A stretch of DNA of 33,538 nucleotides from positions 1 to 33,538 of the forward strand of contig JAOPZJ010000138.1 in the NCBI GenBank assembly GCA_025964155.1, read 5' to 3'. Under the pieces are notes generated by a model. The model made no database searches. It saw only the letters and a program-made list of their open reading frames with translations, and was not told the origin of the DNA. This DNA is from Solirubrobacterales bacterium (GTDB lineage Bacteria > Actinomycetota > Thermoleophilia > Solirubrobacterales > Solirubrobacteraceae). A program made the position numbers and the translations under genes. Positions 33,072 to 33,131 of the stretch are shown piece after piece; the stretch's first letter is position 1; every line of letters begins with the position of its first letter.

Positions 33072-33091
33072 GCGGTCCTCCGTTAGACGTG

Positions 33092-33131
33092 AAAAGCCCC
33101 GGAGGCACGTCGGGTGACGTGAAGCCGGGGC
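33092..33131 (-). promoter_or_regulatory. gyrB leader hairpin GCCCCGG-CTT-CACGTC-ACCC-GACGTG-CCT-CCGGGGC followed by TTTT (candidate attenuator)
   Basis: Direct reading of the minus strand; lies between a putative -10 and the gyrB SD. Confidence 0.55.

Follow-up and report, generated by a model that had tools for sequence, protein, structure and literature searches.

The gyrB leader of bacteria in the order Solirubrobacterales carries a GC-rich hairpin, and the conservation of this hairpin, with its constant spacing downstream of the gyrB promoter, indicates that it is a real control element. From comparison of leader sequences, we consider it about evenly probable that the element acts as a gyrB-specific, promoter-proximal site near +57 at which RNA polymerase would pause or partially terminate, thereby throttling gyrBA. 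The stretch of DNA that we analyzed (the window; 33,538 nucleotides) comes from a Paraconexibacter-like member of the order, whose genome is in 451 contigs.

In the window, all parts of the locus lie on the minus strand. gyrB (30651–33071; above cut-off for NCBIfam PRK14939/TIGR01059) begins with a GTG start codon at 33071 and is followed 3′ on the same strand by gyrA (28038–30608; NCBIfam). A DUF721 gene precedes gyrB, and promoter and hairpin occupy the gap between the two. The promoter has an extended −10 element, TGCTATAGT (33160–33152; consensus TGnTAnnnT), which includes TATAGT (33157–33152) and is kept in relatives while its flanks vary; judging by the distance from it, transcription probably starts at 33144–33146. 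Further downstream, GCCCCGG (33125–33131) and CCGGGGC (33096–33102) form the outer stem of the hairpin. Enclosed within it, between a CTT linker (between 33125 and 33121) and a CCT linker (between 33106 and 33102), is the inner hairpin CACGTC-ACCC-GACGTG (33106–33121), in which the arms CACGTC (33121–33116) and GACGTG (33111–33106) flank an ACCC loop. A short TTTT run (33092–33095) follows, then ACGT (33087–33090), the window's version of a box that we call RYGU, and the gyrB Shine-Dalgarno sequence GGAGG (33077–33081). The original prediction described a terminator-like hairpin at 33131–33096 followed by TTTT and flanked by an extended −10 and the gyrB Shine-Dalgarno sequence, and every one of these parts is in place. 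Folded alone, the hairpin adopts the predicted two stacked stems at −25.6 kcal/mol; the 80-nt leader folds with z = −2.2, with 6 of 200 shuffles as good. Perfect stems that reach 7 bp or more, contain 6 or more GC pairs and run into TTTT occur 6 times in 433 kb of the window's genus against about 2 expected, and the order-wide conservation is a stronger argument against chance than this rarity.

From about 90 relatives we collected the sequence upstream of gyrB, and 67 of these leaders, belonging to four Solirubrobacterales families, could be fitted to a common layout. The layout runs from TGnTAnnnT over 18–21 nt to GCCCCGR, a variable inner hairpin of about 22 nt and YCGGGGY, and then, after 5–6 nt, to RYGU, the Shine-Dalgarno sequence and gyrB. 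Among the 65 leaders with a recognised −10, the spacing from −10 to stem is 18–21 nt in 60. The start codon, the inner hairpin and the downstream spacing drift, whereas the promoter-to-stem and stem-to-RYGU distances stay constant. In ten genomes that were kept outside model building, we found the −10-to-stem spacing in 10/10, RYGU in 9/10 and an upstream TTTGC element in 8/10. The element was not found in a minority of the order's genomes (for example L004, L071, L073, L076, L089, L094 and L097).

The outer 7-bp stem shows the pattern expected of a selected RNA helix. Across 44 aligned sequences, 97% of its cells are paired, and both sides have changed in 12 cells, compared with 4.4 ± 1.6 in shuffles (reached in 0 of 500); when each arm is matched with a slid partner, pairing falls to 29–63%. 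The changes include exchanges of G-C for A-U at pairs 1 and 7, in several genera of three families, and of C-G for U-A at the fourth pair, again in several genera. The outer stem is kept in sequence as well as in pairing. The inner stem, present in most relatives with drifting sequence, cannot be aligned column by column and was therefore tested by folding each sequence. The inner regions fold at a mean of −7.95 kcal/mol, against −5.07 kcal/mol for shuffles (Wilcoxon p = 4e-11); the inner stem is stable yet free to drift in sequence. The distance from arm to arm ranges from 4 to more than 20 nt among the leaders. At the lower end, leader L108 has a 4-nt loop in place of the inner hairpin (GCCCCGG-TCAA-CCGGGGC) and retains RYGU, and its promoter still lies 56 nt from the 3′ end of the stem, which equals the median over all leaders.

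Of two features just 3′ of the stem, RYGU is the better conserved: it begins at +4 to +8, counted from the stem, in 53 of the 67 leaders (8.3 expected from shuffled tails), and a U-run (TTT starting no more than 2 nt from the stem) is present in 30. U-runs are found in 11 of the 14 leaders that lack RYGU and in 19 of the 53 that have it (Fisher p = 0.006; like our other p values it is optimistic, since the leaders are related), and at least one of the two features occurs in 64 of 67. Both the trade-off and this near-universal presence would be explained if RYGU and the U-run held polymerase at the same point. Together with two G residues in the stem (33099–33098 in the window), the RYGU box spells G−11 G−10 … Y−1 G+1: GG occupies −11 and −10 in 46 of the 53 RYGU leaders, a match that is not independent because both G lie inside the conserved stem, and Y−1 G+1 is found in 53 of 53, by selection on RYGT. 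The RYGU leaders thus agree with the published pause consensus G−10 Y−1 G+1, which derives from E. coli and other bacteria rather than from this class (PMC9291695; see also PMC6336406).

At the commonest offsets, Y−1 falls 7 or 8 nt past the stem. A hairpin closer than 10–13 nt to the RNA 3′ end has the geometry of termination. Hairpins that stabilize pauses stand 10–13 nt away (PMC12288461), and we accordingly rejected a hairpin-stabilized pause of the his type on the basis of the 7–8 nt observed here. The GC-rich, stable hairpin expected of an intrinsic terminator is present, as seen in the window's fold and in the covariation of the outer stem. Because the U-run occurs in just 30 of 67 leaders, we speak of a pause or partial termination site and not of a plain terminator; with the U-tract missing or interrupted in more than half of them, release may be weak.

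A covariance model of the leader element (R1) shows how closely the element is tied to gyrB. The window, itself part of the seed, matches the model with E = 1.9e-6 (41.8 bits), and genomes outside the seed match too. Matches at E ≤ 0.1 are found in 90 of 101 relatives. Strong ones occur solely in Solirubrobacterales and, wherever checked, stand at gyrB, with one exception: a gene-end hairpin (G045:C1:1355429; E = 3.2e-5) that outscores the gyrB leader of its own genome. On inspection, the best matches away from gyrB proved to be either hairpins at gene ends or coincidental hits in coding sequence, and on these grounds we rejected the idea that the motif is repeated genome-wide or marks a regulon. 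A scan of 399 genomes from the class gives hits at E ≤ 1e-4 in three families of the same order only (f1, f2 and f3), and the 49 loci that we took from other families and from more distant relatives give none better than E = 0.2. No Rfam family matches the window leader, and we found no gyrB leader element of this class in the open-access literature; the element is previously undescribed.

These features suggest how the leader may work. RNA polymerase would start about 7 nt past the extended −10, make about 13 nt of leader and then transcribe the GC-rich hairpin. With the RNA 3′ end 7–8 nt past the stem, at about +57, it would meet the pause consensus, assisted in some lineages by the short U-run. 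At this spacing the hairpin would favour termination, so that a fraction of polymerases may be held or released, which would lower gyrBA output and with it, presumably, the level of gyrase. The leader has neither a sensor domain nor an alternative fold, and any regulation would come from elongation factors such as NusA and NusG or from the state of the DNA.

Several known systems share parts of this arrangement. In one known leader terminator (PMC12288461), read-through into the gene is controlled without a metabolite sensor, as we propose for gyrB; that terminator serves a different gene, and the gyrB leaders often have an interrupted U-tract and conserve the pause consensus instead. The his, trp and leu leader pauses combine a hairpin with G−10 Y−1 G+1 as here (PMC9291695, PMC6336406), whereas the gyrB leader has a termination-like distance of 7–8 nt from stem to 3′ end, not 10–13, and lacks a leader peptide. 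The Pseudomonas gyrA RNA motif (RF01740; Weinberg et al. 2010, PMC2864571) is, like our element, a predicted structured leader of a gyrase gene, but it differs in gene, phylum and sequence, and a search of the window with RF01740 gives no match at the gathering threshold, nor any when E values as high as 5 are admitted. The supercoiling-sensitive gyrBA promoters of Streptomyces and Mycobacterium are a further case of special transcriptional control of actinobacterial gyrBA; the cited portions of those papers place the action at the promoter and report no leader hairpin (PMC5055605, PMC4770202).

The same features can be read in other ways. A 5′-proximal hairpin might stabilize the gyrBA mRNA, or it might be the target of a protein that controls initiation a short way downstream; such a protein could be a translation regulator or a subunit of gyrase. 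Conservation of the outer stem in sequence, beyond pairing, speaks for such a post-transcriptional role, as does the distance of 13–16 nt between hairpin end and Shine-Dalgarno sequence in most leaders; yet in the predicted fold of the window leader the Shine-Dalgarno sequence is mostly clear of the hairpin, and the fixed promoter distance, the pause geometry and the trade-off between U-run and RYGU would be left unexplained. We regard this role as somewhat unlikely. The fixed promoter spacing and the neighbouring TTTGCRG element (see below) would also suit a palindromic DNA operator in the early transcribed region, bound by a repressor or nucleoid protein. Against an operator stand the widely varying distance between the arms and the exchanges among G-C, A-U and G-U pairs, which are what RNA pairing predicts, and we judge it improbable. 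Equally doubtful is that the hairpin is the ordinary intrinsic terminator of an upstream recF-DUF721 operon that by chance follows the gyrB promoter. The same GCCCCGG…CCGGGGC stems do occur at the 3′ ends of other genes (L147, L152, L154 and L155), but a terminator at this position would also cut gyrB's own transcript, and the hairpin is separated from DUF721 by a conserved promoter, to which its spacing is fixed.

The original prediction went further than a terminator and proposed an attenuator, in which the inner arm GACGTG (33111–33106) would alternatively pair with a second CACGTC after the T-run (33091–33086); the antiterminator helix so formed and the terminator would be mutually exclusive. 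The repeat is present in the window, where it contains the RYGU box, and in the relatives the alternative pairing, scored column by column, slightly exceeds shuffles, an excess that we attribute to the CG-rich make-up common to both segments. To compare each leader with its own tail, we scored, in 65 leaders, the best helix that the inner region can form with the tail and permuted the tails among species: the mean score was 12.26 with own tails and 12.31 with those of other species (p = 0.56). The alternative pairing is therefore not conserved. Only the window has the perfect repeat of the hexamer, which its same-genus relatives L027, L028, L050 and L053 lack, and the RYGU segment, conserved in its own right, persists even where the inner arm differs in sequence and is not complementary to it. 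Furthermore, the downstream CACGTC would be made only after the termination point, so it cannot serve as a transcriptional antiterminator. Upstream of the hairpin, where we looked for an attenuator's sensor, there is only about 13 nt of little-conserved RNA with no Rfam match. We therefore retain from the attenuator proposal a terminator-shaped hairpin under selection, as judged by position, covariation and gyrB specificity, and consider the mutually exclusive switch very improbable. A related candidate, sequestration of the Shine-Dalgarno sequence by CCTCCG (33105–33100), is possible in the window and was rejected since CCTCC is missing at that place in the nearest relatives.

A second conserved sequence accompanies the promoter. 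The window has TTTGCAGGTCTTTT (33196–33209, minus strand) 49 nt upstream of the TG with which the extended −10 begins, and TTTGC[AG]G is found 48–49 nt upstream of this TG in 53 leaders of the order (among L027–L115) and in 8 of f6, another family of the class (among L174–L181 and L224–L225). A/T tracts lie about 10 bp to either side of it, and there is no conserved −35 region. We rejected TTTGCAGGnnTTTT alone as gyrB-specific, for several of its matches adjoin tRNA genes or form gene-end hairpins; specificity for gyrB holds, within the order, for TTTGCAGGnnTTTT plus TGnTA at the fixed distance, and a search of 61 genomes of the order for TTTGCRG-N41,42-TGnTAnnnT gives 38 matches, almost all of them at gyrB. 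Because TTTGCRG is placed upstream of the promoter, it must act as DNA, and it looks like a candidate binding site near −60, spanning about −64 to −51, for a gyrB activator or another factor. Leader L061, from the window's genus (genome G003), has a perfectly palindromic form of the upstream element, GAAAGTGCTG-TTTTG-CAGCACTTTC, which could be a dimer site or the terminator of the DUF721 operon.

Gyrase genes are the textbook case of promoter-level control by supercoiling. That an entire order keeps a leader element at constant spacing from the gyrB promoter points to a second layer of control, acting after initiation. Under the pause or partial termination reading, the site near +57 might itself be a sensor that responds to supercoiling (or to NusA/NusG) in concert with TTTGCRG, making gyrase homeostasis partly post-initiation. 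We offer this extension as a speculation that is probably wrong; if true, supercoiling would feed back on gyrase during elongation. The trade-off between RYGU and U-run also bears on how polymerase is stopped or stalled in high-GC actinobacteria, where long U-tracts are rare.

Other gyrB leaders carry elements of their own. In family f7 of the same class (L182–L189 and L206–L218), the extended −10 overlaps the DUF721 stop codon and is followed by about 33 nt, a T-run and the start codon; ATTTGCAGGGC plus the T-run (usually T5-6) abuts the gyrB start codon, and the likely Shine-Dalgarno sequence (AGGG) is part of the hairpin's 3′ arm. In shape, this leader resembles a terminator touching the start codon, with weak covariation; we rejected the hairpin, since ATTTGCAGGGCTTTTTT is conserved as sequence and its pairing is unsupported by covariation. 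Families f6 and f8 (L174–L181, L191, L194 and L197) have unrelated hairpins, such as GGGTCTC…GAGACCC and AGGGCGA…TCGCCCT, a few nucleotides from the predicted gyrB transcription start. The long gyrB leader of family f9 (L198–L204) contains a conserved block, CCGGAGGTCGGAGCTTGAAGGAGCGCAGCCCTGTCT…GCTGTTTT, that looks like a separate and possibly structured element. In Acidimicrobiia, another class, a conserved hairpin-like GCCCGTCTAGCAGGGCAGAAAAGC block lies directly 5′ of the gyrB start (L010–L021).
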